From Gemmatimonadota bacterium (GTDB lineage: Bacteria > Gemmatimonadota > Gemmatimonadetes > Longimicrobiales > Gaopeijiaceae), in assembly GCA_007121455.1 (NCBI GenBank), contig SKKN01000023.1:124001-188000 (forward strand): 64,000 nucleotides of DNA. Direction: 5' to 3'. Under the pieces are notes generated by a model that did not search any database, had not been told where the DNA came from, and saw nothing but the letters and a program-made list of their open reading frames with translations. This document shows, piece after piece, positions 39,367 to 45,446 of the stretch. Position 1 is the first letter of the stretch, and each line of letters opens with the position of its first letter. Position numbers and translations under genes: made by a program.

Positions 39367-40398
39367 GTGTCCGGTAGCCGGAAGGAGACCCTGCGAGTGG
39401 GAGAGCTCGAAGCAGGAGTCCGGGTAGATCGGTACCTCGCGGACACGCTGAACCTTTCCCGTACTCGGATCCAGCACCTGCTCGACGAGGGAATGATCCT
39501 CGTCGACGGGAGGCGTCCGCGAAAATCAGAGCAAGTCGAGGCCGGCCAGCGGATCGAGGTGGAGGTCCCACCTCCCGAGCCTTTGAGCGAGGAGCCGGAG
39601 GACATCCCGCTCGACATCGTCTACGAGGACAATGCGCTCCTCGTCGTGGACAAGCCCGCAGGGCTCGTCGTGCACCCCGCGCCCGGGCACCCCGGGGGGA
39701 CGCTCGTGAACGCGCTTCTCCACCATGTGGATGACCTTTCCGGAATCGGGGGGCGGCTCCGGCCCGGGATCGTCCACAGGCTCGACCGCGACACCTCCGG
39801 ACTTCTCGTGGTTGCAAAGGGTGACGAGGCGCACCAACGCCTCTCCGAAGCGCTGAAGGCGAGGAACGTTCGAAGGATCTACAAGGCTCTGGTGTGGGGG
39901 CATCTCCCCGAGGATGAGATGCGAGTGGATGCTCCGATCGGCCGGGACCCCAGGAACCGGAAACGCATGGCGGTGGTCGACGGCGGGCGGCGGGCGGCGA
40001 CCCGATTCCGGGTGCGGGACCGATGGCCCGCCGCGGAGCTCCTCGAGGTCGCGCTCGAGTCCGGAAGGACGCATCAGATCCGGGTGCACCTCCTCCATCT
40101 CGGGCATCCCATCGTCGGAGACCCCGTCTATGGAGTTGGTTGGGAGCGGGGGATGAGTGGACCGGCCAGGGGGTGGGCGATGGAACTCGCCCGGCGCGTA
40201 CCTCGCCAATTTCTGCATGCCGCAGTTCTGGCCTTCGACCACCCTTCGACCGGTGAGCCGATGCGCTTCGAAGTGCCGCTGCCTCCGGACCTCGCCCATG
40301 TGGTCGAATGGGTGGAGGAGGGGTACAGGGACCAGGAGGCGCGCGACGGGGGAGGGTACGCTCAGGAGGACCGAGCCGATGCGGAGGAGGGTGTGTAA
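39367..40398 (+). CDS. rluD: RluD-family ribosomal pseudouridine synthase
   Basis: A 343-residue enzyme. An N-terminal S4 RNA-binding domain (VRVDRYLADTLNLSRTRIQHLLDEG) precedes the catalytic domain with HRLDRDTSGLLVVAK, which contains the catalytic aspartate. SGRTHQIRVHL follows. It modifies uridines in 23S rRNA helix 69 in well-studied members. The final 20 residues are acidic and low complexity. The GTG at 39367 is 11 bp after lspA; the stop shares one base with the start of the DnaA-like gene. Confidence 0.94.
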   Translation: MSGSRKETLRVGELEAGVRVDRYLADTLNLSRTRIQHLLDEGMILVDGRRPRKSEQVEAGQRIEVEVPPPEPLSEEPEDIPLDIVYEDNALLVVDKPAGLVVHPAPGHPGGTLVNALLHHVDDLSGIGGRLRPGIVHRLDRDTSGLLVVAKGDEAHQRLSEALKARNVRRIYKALVWGHLPEDEMRVDAPIGRDPRNRKRMAVVDGGRRAATRFRVRDRWPAAELLEVALESGRTHQIRVHLLHLGHPIVGDPVYGVGWERGMSGPARGWAMELARRVPRQFLHAAVLAFDHPSTGEPMRFEVPLPPDLAHVVEWVEEGYRDQEARDGGGYAQEDRADAEEGV

Positions 40399-42386
40399 TG
40401 GAGCTCGACCGTCGGATGACCTTCGACACGTACGTGGTGGGGCCCGCGAATCGTCTCGCCACCGCCGCGGCCCGTCGAGCCGCGGATTCGCCGGGGACCA
40501 GCTACAACCCCCTCTTCCTCTATTCTGCCTCCGGACTGGGAAAGTCGCACATCCTCACTGCCGTCGCGCAGCACGCGACCCGCACCAAACCGGAGCGGAA
40601 GGTCGTATACCAGTCGCTCGAAGGGTATCTGGATGAGCTGACGCAGTCGCTTGGGAGCGGGGACAAGGACGGAATGCGGGACCGGTACCGCGACCTCGAG
40701 ATTCTCCTCCTGGACGACGTGCAGTTTCTCACCGGCCAGACCCAGGCGCAGGAGCTCCTTCTTCGAACCCTCGATACCCTGGCTGCCCAGGGCAGCCAGG
40801 TCGTCCTTGCGAGCGATCGGCCGCCTGCGGAGATCAACGGATTGGACGCCCGACTTCTCTCCCGCTTCTCCGGAGGGCTCATCGTCGACATCGGCACTCC
40901 TGATTACGAGACGCGAGTCGCGATCATGCGGAGAAAGGTCGAGGAGAGGAGTGCCCGGCTCCTCCCGGGCGTCGCCGAAGCCATGGCCCGCCATCCGTAC
41001 AAGAACGTGCGGGAGCTGCAGGGAGCGCTGAACCGGGTGCTGGCGGTCCAGGACCTCGAGGACCGCCAGGTGGCGCCCGATGAGGTGTACGGCATCCTCG
41101 GTGTGGGGGACGCCGGCCGCGCGGACGAGGGCAAGCCGGAGCCCCAACCGGTCGTCCCTGAGGTCGAGGAGGAGCCGGAACCCGAGCCGGAGACATGGAG
41201 GCAGACCCTCCAGAAGGAGGCTTCAGTCGCAGAGGAGGAAGGGTACTCCGCGGCGCGACTTCACCGACTCCTGGCGGCCGATGTCGAGCCTGAGGACCTG
41301 GAAGGGGTGGTCCGACGGTTTCGTCGTGACGTGGAGCGGCTTCAGGAGATTGGTGCGGCGTTGATCGAGCTGGGGAGTCCGTCGTCGGATGCGGACCAGA
41401 CGGTCCTCGAAGATCCCGAGCGGCTAGAGGAGGCCGAGGCCCTGCTCGCTTCTGCGAGAGAGCGGCGCAGACCCTTCCCCGAAATCGGGAATGGCCCCGT
41501 GCTTTCCGAGCTCACCGGTCGTTACCCACCCCTGGCACTCCGTGCCGCGGAACGGTTCGTGCTACAGGAGAGGCCGGAGTACAACCCGCTTTACGTCGTT
41601 TGCTCGGAGAGGGTTGGTGCGAACGACCTTCTGCGGGCGACCGGCCGAACTCTCCTCGGCATTCGGCCGAACGCCCGGGTGGCGCTCGTATCCGTGCAGG
41701 AGTTCGCCGAGGACTTCATCCGGGCGATCTCCGAGGGCGTGGCGGGAGCGTGGCGGGAGCGATGGTGGAGCGTGGACCTCTTCCTCCTCAGCGGCGCGGA
41801 GGCGCTTTCCGACACGGAACGGGCACAGGACGAGTTCTTTCACCTCTTTGAGGCACTGAAGGGGCAGGATGCGCGCATCCTGATCACCGCAGACTGCCCT
41901 CCTTCGGAGATCGAGAAGATCGACGACCGCCTGCGCTCCCGGTTCGAAGGAGGGCTCGTGGTGGAGGTCGACGGTTTGGAAGTCACCGATACCGGGGGCG
42001 GGGAGGTGGAGCTCGAAGTACGCGGGAGCGCCGCGGGGGAAGGCACGGTAGCCGAGGTCGAGGAGCACGACCGCGGGAAAGACCCCGCTCCGGCGACTGC
42101 CGGGGTGGAAACCGTCGTTCCGGACGTTCCGGTTCCGCCGACCGGTGTGGTGGGCGACGGGACGGGCAAGCCTCGCTCCGGAACGCACTCGGATGACCTC
42201 GCCCTGATCCGTGAAATCTCCGGGGTCGGGGCCCGTGCCACTCGGAAGCCCGATGAAGAGGGAAGCGTTGTGGCGGAAGGGTCTTCGGCCAAGGGGCCGG
42301 ATGGAGAGGAGGTGTGGAGGCCGAACCCGGAGAAGGTGGTCTGGCGCTGGCCGCGACTTGCGGACGTCCTCGAGGAGGACGACTGA
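40398..42386 (+). CDS. Tandem DnaA-like AAA+ protein with degenerate second domain
   Basis: A 662-residue protein. Residues 8-235 form a DnaA-type AAA+ module: YNPLFLYSASGLGKSH (Walker A, 36-51), LLLDDVQFL (Walker B, 103-111), LASDRPPAEI (sensor 1), ARLLSRF (arginine finger, 151-157) and NVRELQGAL (sensor 2, 203-211). A charged linker with coiled-coil character spans 240-360. A second module (395-527) again starts YNPLYV, but Walker A is RVGAND and Walker B is LFLLSGAEAL, while the DRLRSRFEGGL box is intact and the lid is missing. The tail is disordered. The DnaA DNA-binding domain is absent, so this is not the replication initiator. It is coupled to the PATAN-TPR gene. Confidence 0.88.
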   Translation: MELDRRMTFDTYVVGPANRLATAAARRAADSPGTSYNPLFLYSASGLGKSHILTAVAQHATRTKPERKVVYQSLEGYLDELTQSLGSGDKDGMRDRYRDLEILLLDDVQFLTGQTQAQELLLRTLDTLAAQGSQVVLASDRPPAEINGLDARLLSRFSGGLIVDIGTPDYETRVAIMRRKVEERSARLLPGVAEAMARHPYKNVRELQGALNRVLAVQDLEDRQVAPDEVYGILGVGDAGRADEGKPEPQPVVPEVEEEPEPEPETWRQTLQKEASVAEEEGYSAARLHRLLAADVEPEDLEGVVRRFRRDVERLQEIGAALIELGSPSSDADQTVLEDPERLEEAEALLASARERRRPFPEIGNGPVLSELTGRYPPLALRAAERFVLQERPEYNPLYVVCSERVGANDLLRATGRTLLGIRPNARVALVSVQEFAEDFIRAISEGVAGAWRERWWSVDLFLLSGAEALSDTERAQDEFFHLFEALKGQDARILITADCPPSEIEKIDDRLRSRFEGGLVVEVDGLEVTDTGGGEVELEVRGSAAGEGTVAEVEEHDRGKDPAPATAGVETVVPDVPVPPTGVVGDGTGKPRSGTHSDDLALIREISGVGARATRKPDEEGSVVAEGSSAKGPDGEEVWRPNPEKVVWRWPRLADVLEEDD

Positions 42387-44005
42387 TGGCGATCGAGGGA
42401 TCCCTCACCGACGTCGATCTGGCGGATATCTGCCAGCTCCTTGCGATGGGGCGGAAGACGGGGTGCCTGACGGTCACGGACCGTTCGAACTTCGGCTACG
42501 TGTACTTCGAGCAGGGCCGGATCAGCTACGCCTCGATCCTGAACCGACCGGACCGGTTGGGTGAGCTCCTGGTCCGCAACGACGTGATCACGCGAGGGGA
42601 CCTCTCGCAGGCGATGGAGATGCAGGCGCACCATCCAGGGAAGCGACTGGGTCAGATCCTCGTGGAGCGAGGGAGCCTCACCGAGGAGGAGCTGACTCGA
42701 TACATCACCGTCCAGATCGAGGAGGCCGTGTATCATCTCTTCGGATGGGATCGGGGAACCTTCCATTTCGACCCGGAAGAGCGCCCGGACGATGGGGCGT
42801 TGAAGGTGTCCATCCATGCGGAAGGCCTCCTCCTGGAGGGTGCCCGGAGGGTGGACGAGTGGAGCATGATCGAGAAGAAGATTCCGAGCATGGATCTCGT
42901 CTTCTCCCTCGAAAGGGATCCGCTGGGAGAGGAGGATGTGGAGCTCACCGAGGAGCAGAGGAAGGTGCTCCCGCTCCTCGACGGGGCGCGAAGCGTTGAG
43001 GAGATCGGGAAAGAATCGGGCCTGGTGGAGTTCGACGTGGCGAAGGCGGTCTATGGGCTTCTACAGGCCGGCTTCGCGCGGCGGTCCGGCCAGAAGACCG
43101 AAAAGGCCGAAGAGCCGGGTGACGCGCTGCTCCACCAGCATTTGAACCTCGGGCTTGCCTTCTACCGAGCCGGGATGCTGGAGGATGCCGAGCGGGAGTT
43201 GGACCGTGCGCTCGAGATCGACTCCACCCAGGTGGAAGCCCGGCGCACGCTCGCACTGATCGGGCTCAAGTCGGGGCGGACCGAGGAGGCGCTGGAGCAC
43301 CTCGTCCGGCTCGCAGAGAATGCTCGGGTGAGCCCCGGTACGCTTCGAAACCTCGCGTTCGCCCTCGAGTTGCTGGAGCGTTACGACGATGCGCTGGACG
43401 CCCTGGCACGCGCAGAAACAAGCGGTGTCGCGAAAGAAGACCTCGACGTCGCCCGGGCGGTCCTCAACCTGAAGCGGGGAGATCCGAAGCGATCGCGAGA
43501 CATCTTCCGCCAATACCGGAAGGAATCGGGAACGGCCCTCTCGCCGATCTACTACGCCTACGCCCTTCTCGCCGAAGGGGCGGCGGGCAACCCGGAAGCT
43601 GCGCTCGCGCTCGGGCGGGAGGGGCTCACGCGCTTCCCGGAGGACGGGGCGATCATGGTCAACCTCGGAGTGGTCCTCGAGCGAAGGGGTGAAACCGAAG
43701 CTGCCGAGGCGCTCTATCTGCGAGCCGTCTCCGGAGGCGACACGCCTCCCCAGGCGCACAAGAACCTGGGGGACCTGGCGTACCGCCGGGGGGACCCGGC
43801 GAGCGCTCGTGCTCACTACGAGAGAGCGATCCGGATCGACCCGAAGCTCGGAGACGATACCTACTTGAAGCTCGGCAACCTGGCCTACAAGGAGGGGGAG
43901 CGCGAGTGGGCGGTGGGGCTCTGGCAACGAGCCCTCGAGTTGAACCCGCGAAACGAGGTCGTGCGGACGAATCTGGAGCTTCTGGCGGCGACCCCCGAGC
44001 GATGA
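42386..44005 (+). CDS. PATAN (DUF4388) and TPR protein
   Basis: A 539-residue cytosolic protein. Residues 1-150 match the PATAN/DUF4388 type: GSLTDVDLADICQLLAMGRKTGCLTV, then YFEQGRISYASI. Embedded within it are two short repeats, LGELLVRNDVITRGDLSQAM and LGQILVERGSLTEEELTRYI, resembling GspE/MshE N-terminal motifs. Residues 195-235 look like a winged-helix-type extension. From about 250 to the end there are TPR repeats. PATAN proteins act in signalling linked to motility and surface functions in other phyla. The ATG overlaps the DnaA-like stop (TGATG), so the two proteins are probably partners. Confidence 0.88.
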   Translation: MAIEGSLTDVDLADICQLLAMGRKTGCLTVTDRSNFGYVYFEQGRISYASILNRPDRLGELLVRNDVITRGDLSQAMEMQAHHPGKRLGQILVERGSLTEEELTRYITVQIEEAVYHLFGWDRGTFHFDPEERPDDGALKVSIHAEGLLLEGARRVDEWSMIEKKIPSMDLVFSLERDPLGEEDVELTEEQRKVLPLLDGARSVEEIGKESGLVEFDVAKAVYGLLQAGFARRSGQKTEKAEEPGDALLHQHLNLGLAFYRAGMLEDAERELDRALEIDSTQVEARRTLALIGLKSGRTEEALEHLVRLAENARVSPGTLRNLAFALELLERYDDALDALARAETSGVAKEDLDVARAVLNLKRGDPKRSRDIFRQYRKESGTALSPIYYAYALLAEGAAGNPEAALALGREGLTRFPEDGAIMVNLGVVLERRGETEAAEALYLRAVSGGDTPPQAHKNLGDLAYRRGDPASARAHYERAIRIDPKLGDDTYLKLGNLAYKEGEREWAVGLWQRALELNPRNEVVRTNLELLAATPER

Positions 44006-45081
44006 TCGTTTTCCTCCTGGCCCTTGCCCTCCAGGGCGGGTTCCAGGATCCGGCCGACGTCGACTTCCTGCCTCCCGGGGCTGTGGCCGTGGCGCCGGAT
44101 ACACCTCCGTTGGCAGGGCGCGTGCAGGTGATTCACTGGCCGGGAGACGAGCACCGGGTGGAGCGGGTGCTCCGAGTGCTCGAGGTCCACCACCGGCTCC
44201 CCGCGCTTCCGGACGGGCTTCCGACCCATGCCCGGATCTATCTGGCACCCGACCGTGAACGCTTCGATCTGCTCACCGGTGGACGCGTGCCCGAATGGGG
44301 TGCGGGAGTTGCCGTACCCTCGCTCGACCGTATCGTGATCCCGCTCTTTTCCAGTCCCTGGGGCGACCCATGGGGTGAGGACCGAACCCTCCGGCACGAG
44401 TGGGCGCACCTCGGGCTCCACGAGTACATGTCCGGGCTTCGGATCCCGCGATGGTTCGACGAGGGGTACGCCCAGATCGCCGCCGGAAGCTGGTCTGTGG
44501 AAGAGGCATGGCGTCTCCGGATCGCCCTTGCCTCGGGACGGGCCCCTCCCCTCGACTCTCTCTCCCTGAATTGGCCGCGGGACCAGGGTTCCGCCAGGAT
44601 CGCATACCTCCTCTCCGCGACGGCCGTGGAGTTTCTCCGTGGCCGGGCCGGGGATCGGGGGCTGGAGGTCCTTCTCCCTCGCTGGCGCGAAGAGGGGAGC
44701 TTCGAGCGTGGGTTGCGGCTCACCTTCGGGTTCACGACCGCATCGTTCGAATCGGCCTGGCGGAGTCATGTGACAAGGCGCTATGGCTGGCTCTATCTGC
44801 TTTCACAGTCCCTCGTCTTCTGGGCGATCCTTTCCATTCTCGTCCTCTTCCTCTTCCACCGGCGCCGGGTTCGGGACCGGGAACGTCTCGAACGGCTTCG
44901 GGCAGAGGAGCTGCCCGACGATCCGGCATACTGGATCTGGGCTGCCGACCGGGTGAAGGGAGTGGAAGAAGGGGAGGGGGGCGAGCGAGGCCCGACAGGC
45001 GGCGGGAGGAGGCCCACCGGTGCGTCCGACGACAGCCCCGAGGGCGGCGAACCGCTTGACCACTCTGGAGACCCTCGGTAG
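44002..45081 (+). CDS. Membrane-anchored gluzincin (peptidase MA-like) protein
   Basis: A 359-residue protein. A short N-terminal hydrophobic segment (residues 1-12) may be a signal peptide. The zinc site HEWAH (132-136) and the downstream WFDEGYAQ segment with a glutamate ligand fit the gluzincin/MA-like fold. A transmembrane helix lies at about 272-293, followed by a basic and then acidic cytosolic tail. An extracytoplasmic metallopeptidase is the likely role, though activity is unproven. The ATG overlaps the PATAN-TPR stop (ATGA), making it the third gene of the DnaA-like operon. Confidence 0.82.
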   Translation: MIVFLLALALQGGFQDPADVDFLPPGAVAVAPDTPPLAGRVQVIHWPGDEHRVERVLRVLEVHHRLPALPDGLPTHARIYLAPDRERFDLLTGGRVPEWGAGVAVPSLDRIVIPLFSSPWGDPWGEDRTLRHEWAHLGLHEYMSGLRIPRWFDEGYAQIAAGSWSVEEAWRLRIALASGRAPPLDSLSLNWPRDQGSARIAYLLSATAVEFLRGRAGDRGLEVLLPRWREEGSFERGLRLTFGFTTASFESAWRSHVTRRYGWLYLLSQSLVFWAILSILVLFLFHRRRVRDRERLERLRAEELPDDPAYWIWAADRVKGVEEGEGGERGPTGGGRRPTGASDDSPEGGEPLDHSGDPR

Positions 45082-45093: not shown

Positions 45094-45360
45094 ATGGCGA
45101 AGAGTGCGGAAATAAAGGGTCGGAAGCGCCGAAGCAGGAGGGCGCGCGAGGGCGAGGGCGGGCAACCTCCGAAAGGGGGGCGAACCCGGCAGCGAGACGA
45201 GGGCCTCCGCTTCACTTCGGTGAATGCCCTCTTCGGGGGAGCTGCGCTCGTGACCGTCGTAGCGGGTTACGTTCTCCTCGCCCAGGGTTCGATCACCGCG
45301 GCGCCCCTTCTCCTCGCCCTCGGATACCTGATCCTCTTCCCGGTCGCCCTGGTGAAGTAG
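45094..45360 (+). CDS. Small basic membrane protein
   Basis: An 88-residue protein. The first 37 residues are strongly basic and disordered (KGRKRRSRRAREG), followed by two hydrophobic helices (about 44-60 and 67-86). I do not recognise a family. It resembles small two-helix membrane proteins often found ahead of tRNA genes in related bacteria. The predicted -10 box ends 9 bp before the ATG, and no ribosome-binding site is present, consistent with leaderless translation. Confidence 0.65.
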   Translation: MAKSAEIKGRKRRSRRAREGEGGQPPKGGRTRQRDEGLRFTSVNALFGGAALVTVVAGYVLLAQGSITAAPLLLALGYLILFPVALVK

Positions 45361-45371
45361 CCAGAAATCCG

Positions 45372-45446
45372 GGGCGCTTAGCTCAGCCTGGTTAGAGCGC
45401 CTGCCTTACAAGCAGGAGGTCGCTGGTTCGAGTCCAGCAGCGCCCA
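45372..45446 (+). tRNA. tRNA-Val (TAC)
   Basis: A 75-nt cloverleaf. The acceptor GGGCGCT pairs with AGCGCCC. The anticodon stem CCTGC/GCAGG closes a CTTACAA loop with anticodon TAC, and the T arm contains GGTTCGAGTCC. CCA is not encoded. The stretch 3' of it is gene debris. Confidence 0.95.

Follow-up and report, generated by a model that had tools for sequence, protein, structure and literature searches.

The locus lies within the window, the whole stretch of 64,000 nucleotides that was analysed, which derives from a draft genome of the Gemmatimonadota (3.5 Mb, 95.6% complete). All genes of the locus are read from the + strand. The housekeeping pseudouridine synthase gene rluD (39367..40398; TIGR00005, 298 bits) is followed by gene A (40398..42386), which encodes a DnaA-derived tandem AAA+ protein of 662 residues with two stretches matching PF00308 (E=2.8e-81), and by gene B (42386..44005), whose 539-residue product combines a PATAN (DUF4388) domain, which carries an MshEN insertion, with a winged helix and a TPR array. 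Gene C (44002..45081) encodes a membrane-anchored, gluzincin-type peptidase of 359 residues, and gene D (45094..45360) a small membrane protein that matched no Pfam or NCBIfam family. A tRNA-Val gene (TAC) is located at 45372..45446. Genes A and B are treated below as a unit, with C as a neighbour outside it and rluD, D and the tRNA gene as context.

An earlier note on this DNA had described A, B and C as three genes translationally coupled by stop-to-start overlaps. Both overlaps are present in the sequence, TGATG at 42384-42388 between A and B and ATGA at 44002-44005 between B and C. The boundary of the set did not stand, as the TAA of rluD also overlaps the ATG of A (TAATG), an overlap that the note had missed. 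The coupled run therefore begins further upstream, and translational coupling is no marker of exactly three genes. Scans of the locus for promoters and terminators gave no more than would be expected by chance.

Domain structure of proteins A and B

The assignment of A to the DnaA-derived ATPases in the earlier note was confirmed by two Bac_DnaA stretches (PF00308), the second of which lacks a Walker A motif. AAA+ core 1 (residues 3-230; 40404..41087) retains, in the window's family, the Walker A (GLGKSH) and Walker B (LLLDDVQF) motifs, the arginine finger region (LLSRF) and sensor II (NVRELQGALNR). In the AlphaFold2 model of A (pLDDT 82.6) this core matched domain III of Bacillus subtilis DnaA (8bv3) in Foldseek with a TM-target of 0.94 and 42% identity, and by sequence and predicted fold core 1 is DnaA domain III. 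The protein differs from DnaA in that no Pfam match was found in A for the N-terminal domain I or the C-terminal, DNA-binding domain IV, and in having a second core, a conserved C-terminal peptide and a motility gene context. A full DnaA is encoded elsewhere in the window genome, to which A aligns over residues 2-223 only, and A was accordingly rejected as the DnaA of the cell. A role in anti-phage defence was also rejected: B and C gave no match in the searches, and the single match of A, to mads_8, was marginal (20 bits).

Core 1 is joined by a helical bundle to core 2 (residues ~378-525; 41529..41972), which has no lid. The window's family has lost the Walker A motif of core 2, which some other families retain as GxGK[ST] (L049, L145). 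In further families core 2 is absent or degenerate, and one family has a single-core form in which sensor II is missing. On the evidence of the model and the alignments, the only role of the lid-less core may be to donate an arginine finger. The two cores may have arisen by internal duplication; a tree of cores 1 and 2 was weakly supported, with one mis-cut core 1 row grouping with core 2. Protein A ends in a conserved peptide (EKVVWRWP..., 42324..42383) that follows a stretch predicted to be disordered. Across the phylum this tail reads EKVVWxWP followed by an acidic end and is nearly invariant at several positions; in 37 sequences Trp651 is invariant and Glu645 and Glu660 are conserved in at least 90%.

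Protein B matched PF14332 (DUF4388/PATAN) with 133.4 bits against a gathering score of 25 and carries a TPR array (43121..43990), in agreement with its earlier description as a PATAN/TPR protein. In the AlphaFold2 model (mean pLDDT 86.9) the PATAN fold has a helical insertion and is accompanied by a winged helix and a superhelix of TPRs; a Foldseek search with this model returned generic TPR superhelices only. The helical insertion contains a pair of 24-residue MshEN motifs (42554..42715), which the earlier note had also overlooked. The MshEN model NF053729 scored 51.1 bits against B (cut-off 38), and the segments R57LG...Q80 and R87LG...Q110 fit in the main the published pattern of two 24-residue motifs, RLGxx(L/V/I)(L/V/I)xxG(L/V/I)(L/V/I)xxxxLxxxLxxQ (PMC5013675). 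The glycine of motif 1 is an aspartate in the window and a glycine in several relatives. The same motif is present in PilB of the window genome. B resembles the receptors MshE and PilB (PMC5013675) in having two RLG...Q motifs separated by a short spacer; it differs in that the motifs are embedded in a PATAN domain rather than heading a pilus ATPase, and in that the spacer in the window's B is 6 residues compared to 5. The motif pair is thus a predicted c-di-GMP site through which B would bind the nucleotide.

Genes A and B as one unit, and the position of peptidase C

Gene neighbourhoods were mapped in 58 relatives, the window genome being counted among them, and in 80 named loci, which are the best 80 matches of one genome scan and come nearly all from Gemmatimonadota. 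Among these best 80 loci A adjoins B in all 74 that have room for both, and in 66 of the 74 the two genes overlap or are at most 20 bp apart. In one genome (G022) the two are fused in a single frame of 1026 residues (L067:2735-5812), with the C-terminal peptide of A running directly into the PATAN domain of B. The pair is also lost together. In two genomes (G013 and G032) a deletion scar runs from the opening codons of A directly into the closing codons of B; a third (G005) retains just a broken end of B and a fourth (G027) just the start of A, while rluD and C are still present in all four. The adjacency, the fusion and the joint deletions show that A and B behave as a single unit, which gives strong support to the ATPase-adaptor half of the earlier proposal. 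The two proteins presumably form a physical complex, and the fused G022 frame is a ready single-chain construct for biochemistry.

The product of gene C matched Peptidase_MA_2 (PF13485) with 44 bits (cut-off 32.4) and has one C-terminal membrane span, so the earlier reading of C as a membrane metallopeptidase was correct. Its motifs are HEWAH (residues 132-136) and, further on, Glu154. The HExxH motif is present in 25/25 relatives and the subsequent WFxEG in 23 of these by pattern and in the other two by eye.

The other half of the earlier proposal was that the ATPase-adaptor complex controls C across the membrane, the three genes being one system. It is favoured by the ATGA overlap of B and C in the window and by the finding that C lies 3' of A-B in most loci, including those where it stands at the far end of a che/mgl cluster. 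A-B and C are also positively associated across genomes (p=0.002), although little weight is given to this weak association because C is nearly universal and the genomes without it mostly lack much else. Against the proposal, C is kept in 11 of the 17 relatives that lack A-B, and in the readable neighbourhoods of these genomes the order is mostly rluD, C, small membrane protein; the deletions described above take A-B and spare C. In one genome without A and B (G038), C follows mglA. The gene 3' of B is cheR in 50 of 79 loci and C in 27, and in families other than the window's cheR follows B and C lies beyond the che genes. These observations largely match an outcome that the earlier note itself had named as counting against its proposal. 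Peptidase C is best regarded as belonging to a stable chromosomal frame, rluD-C-D, that surrounds A-B, and not as a member of the unit.

Three further observations concern this frame. The small membrane protein D follows C in most relatives and precedes tRNA-Val where the latter is found. In many relatives of the window's family an NtrC-like regulator with receiver, AAA and FIS-like domains (L092:12585-13997), absent from the window, lies between C and D. A B-C-D locus labelled as Gammaproteobacteria (L103, Ww582) is probably a mis-binned Gemmatimonadota contig.

The chemosensory cluster and MglA

Elsewhere in the phylum, both in other families and in other orders, the pair lies inside a large cluster. 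Upstream are cheA, cheC, genes for a 900-residue TPR protein, a second PATAN protein, a TPR/roadblock protein and two roadblock proteins, and mglA; these are followed by A, B, cheR, cheD, cheB, cheW, a further TPR protein gene, C and the small membrane protein gene. The second PATAN protein, itself a PATAN-TPR protein (L049:2896-4047 and equivalents), and the 900-residue TPR protein are features of this full cluster; the latter is like SgmX in size and TPR content only. The gene 5' of A is mglA in 46 of 67 loci and rluD in 20. The earlier statement that PATAN proteins connect signalling to motility was right, the partners by gene context being MglA, roadblock and Che proteins.

In the window's family the locus consists of rluD, A, B and C only, and the che and mgl genes, among them the cheA, cheB, cheR and cheW that are linked to A-B in other families, are gone from it. 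The two closest genera (71% identity in A), and several others, still carry a roadblock gene between rluD and A, so that the arrangement in the window is best interpreted as what is left of a collapsed Mgl cluster. The MglA of the window genome (57% identity; G000:C19:13636-14208, L168) is encoded away from A-B, among genes named by eye from their translations as dnaX, ybaB, recR, pgsA, grpE and dnaJ, with no adjacent roadblock gene. No match to the roadblock domain PF03259 was found in this 95.6% complete draft, and the window genome apparently has MglA without MglB.

The co-occurrence of B and MglA was measured in 150 genomes of the phylum that are at least 90% complete. MglA was found in 101 of 101 genomes with B compared to 12 of 49 without it, MglA being absent from the remaining 37 (Fisher p=5e-25), a figure that is partly trivial outside the window's family, where the genes share a cluster. 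Within the family the corresponding values were 20/20 and 3/14 (p=1.3e-6), which is more telling because MglA is there encoded at another locus. Both p-values are inflated by relatedness, the genomes being phylogenetically non-independent, and the repeated losses of A-B with scars are stronger evidence than either.

Possible role of the A-B pair

The genes pilB, pilT and pilC sit together in the window genome. PilT scored above its cut-off in 40 of 41 genomes with A-B, the exception (G037) having just a weak match, and in 10 of the 17 relatives without the pair; the distribution of PilT is broader than that of A-B, which counts against a pilus role. PATAN genes near mglA of Groups 1 and 5 have been reported across phyla (PMC4316618), an association that is the same as the one found here, in a paper whose main text leaves DnaA unmentioned. 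PATAN proteins also co-occur with the MglA effector SgmX (PMC11580455), a TPR protein that binds MglA-GTP and recruits PilB to the pole (PMC7519303), and cyanobacterial PATAN regulators bind the pilus motor PilB1 according to work cited in PMC9090330.

The explanation we favour, and consider fairly probable, is that A-B is a two-protein regulator, gated by ATP and c-di-GMP, that takes part in MglA-dependent type IV pilus control, and that C is separate. The pair would once have stood inside the phylum-wide chemosensory/Mgl cluster and now stands alone in the window's family. Protein A would be a DnaA-type ATP switch without a DNA-binding domain, in which the binding of ATP causes oligomerisation or a change of shape, and its conserved C-terminal peptide, carried on a flexible linker, would dock on B. 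B would sense c-di-GMP by means of the MshEN motifs that its PATAN domain contains, and would present its TPR array to either MglA or the pilus machine (PilB/PilT). Acting downstream of MglA or alongside it, A-B would in this way determine the site or the level of type IV pilus activity. The pair probably helps to control surface motility, with type IV pili as the presumed target.

A more specific version, which we put forward tentatively, is that a DnaA-derived AAA+ protein was recruited as an ATP-dependent polarity switch and, with a PATAN-TPR partner that is a predicted c-di-GMP sensor, acts as an effector or regulator of MglA, replacing MglB where MglA is present and no roadblock protein is detectable, as in the window genome.

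It is unlikely, though conceivable, that A-B serves a non-motility output of the chemosensory cluster, such as exopolysaccharide, development or c-di-GMP turnover, for which MglA would be the upstream switch. It is known in general that chemosensory clusters can have other outputs, and CheB is patchy in the window's family, where its absence from several genomes with A-B means that the output need not be taxis. On the other side are the presence of PilT above the cut-off in all A-B genomes but one and the literature on PATAN and MglA, which points to type IV pili (PMC11580455, PMC4316618, PMC9090330).

Still less probable is that A regulates the initiation of replication in the manner of Hda or SirA, joining DnaA oligomers by way of its DnaA-type AAA+ interface and coupling the state of motility or c-di-GMP to initiation via B. 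The Walker A and B motifs, arginine finger region and sensor II retained in core 1 in the window's family, its predicted fold, which differs little from DnaA domain III, and the bona fide DnaA elsewhere in the genome would fit such a role. The score of A against the Hda model (NCBIfam TIGR03420) is however 109 bits, below the cut-off of 194.8, and sensor II is lost in the single-core forms of one family. Core 1 has an altered form of the TQEEFFHTF motif, tied in DnaA to the handling of single-stranded DNA, and this speaks against A acting on single-stranded DNA as DnaA does. Because the gene context is one of motility and chemosensory genes rather than of replication, control of replication through mixed DnaA oligomers is possible and less likely than a role in pilus control. 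Control of peptidase C by A-B within a three-gene system is very improbable, being largely refuted by gene loss and synteny.

Among the known systems closest to the regulator that we favour is the MglA/MglB-SgmX-FrzS-SopA pilus polarity network of Myxococcus (PMC7519303, PMC11580455), where an MglA GTPase, roadblock and TPR proteins and a chemosensory system are likewise genetically linked and PATAN proteins co-occur with SgmX. No DnaA-derived ATPase was found described in that network, whereas here A-B is a fixed pair and the window genome has no detected roadblock protein. The likeness of A-B to an SgmX-type effector of MglA consists of TPR content and linkage only. The cyanobacterial PATAN-CheY regulators (for example PixE on PilB1; cited in PMC9090330) share the PATAN domain, and regulation of the pilus motor is shown there and presumed here; they have a receiver domain, whereas B has MshEN motifs, a predicted winged helix, TPRs and an AAA+ partner.

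Control of surface motility by MglA, PATAN proteins and chemosensory systems is already known, and the DnaA-derived partner appears to be undescribed in the searchable literature. In a literature from which most subscription journals and preprints are excluded, no relevant work was found that connects DUF4388 to DnaA, or MglA and pili to DnaA-like ATPases. The present analysis gives a likely role to a whole uncharacterised family of ATPases in the Gemmatimonadota, a phylum with little motility genetics, in which the DnaA fold has apparently been reused outside replication, in the company of a chemosensory array, a polarity switch of the small GTPase type and a receptor motif for c-di-GMP.
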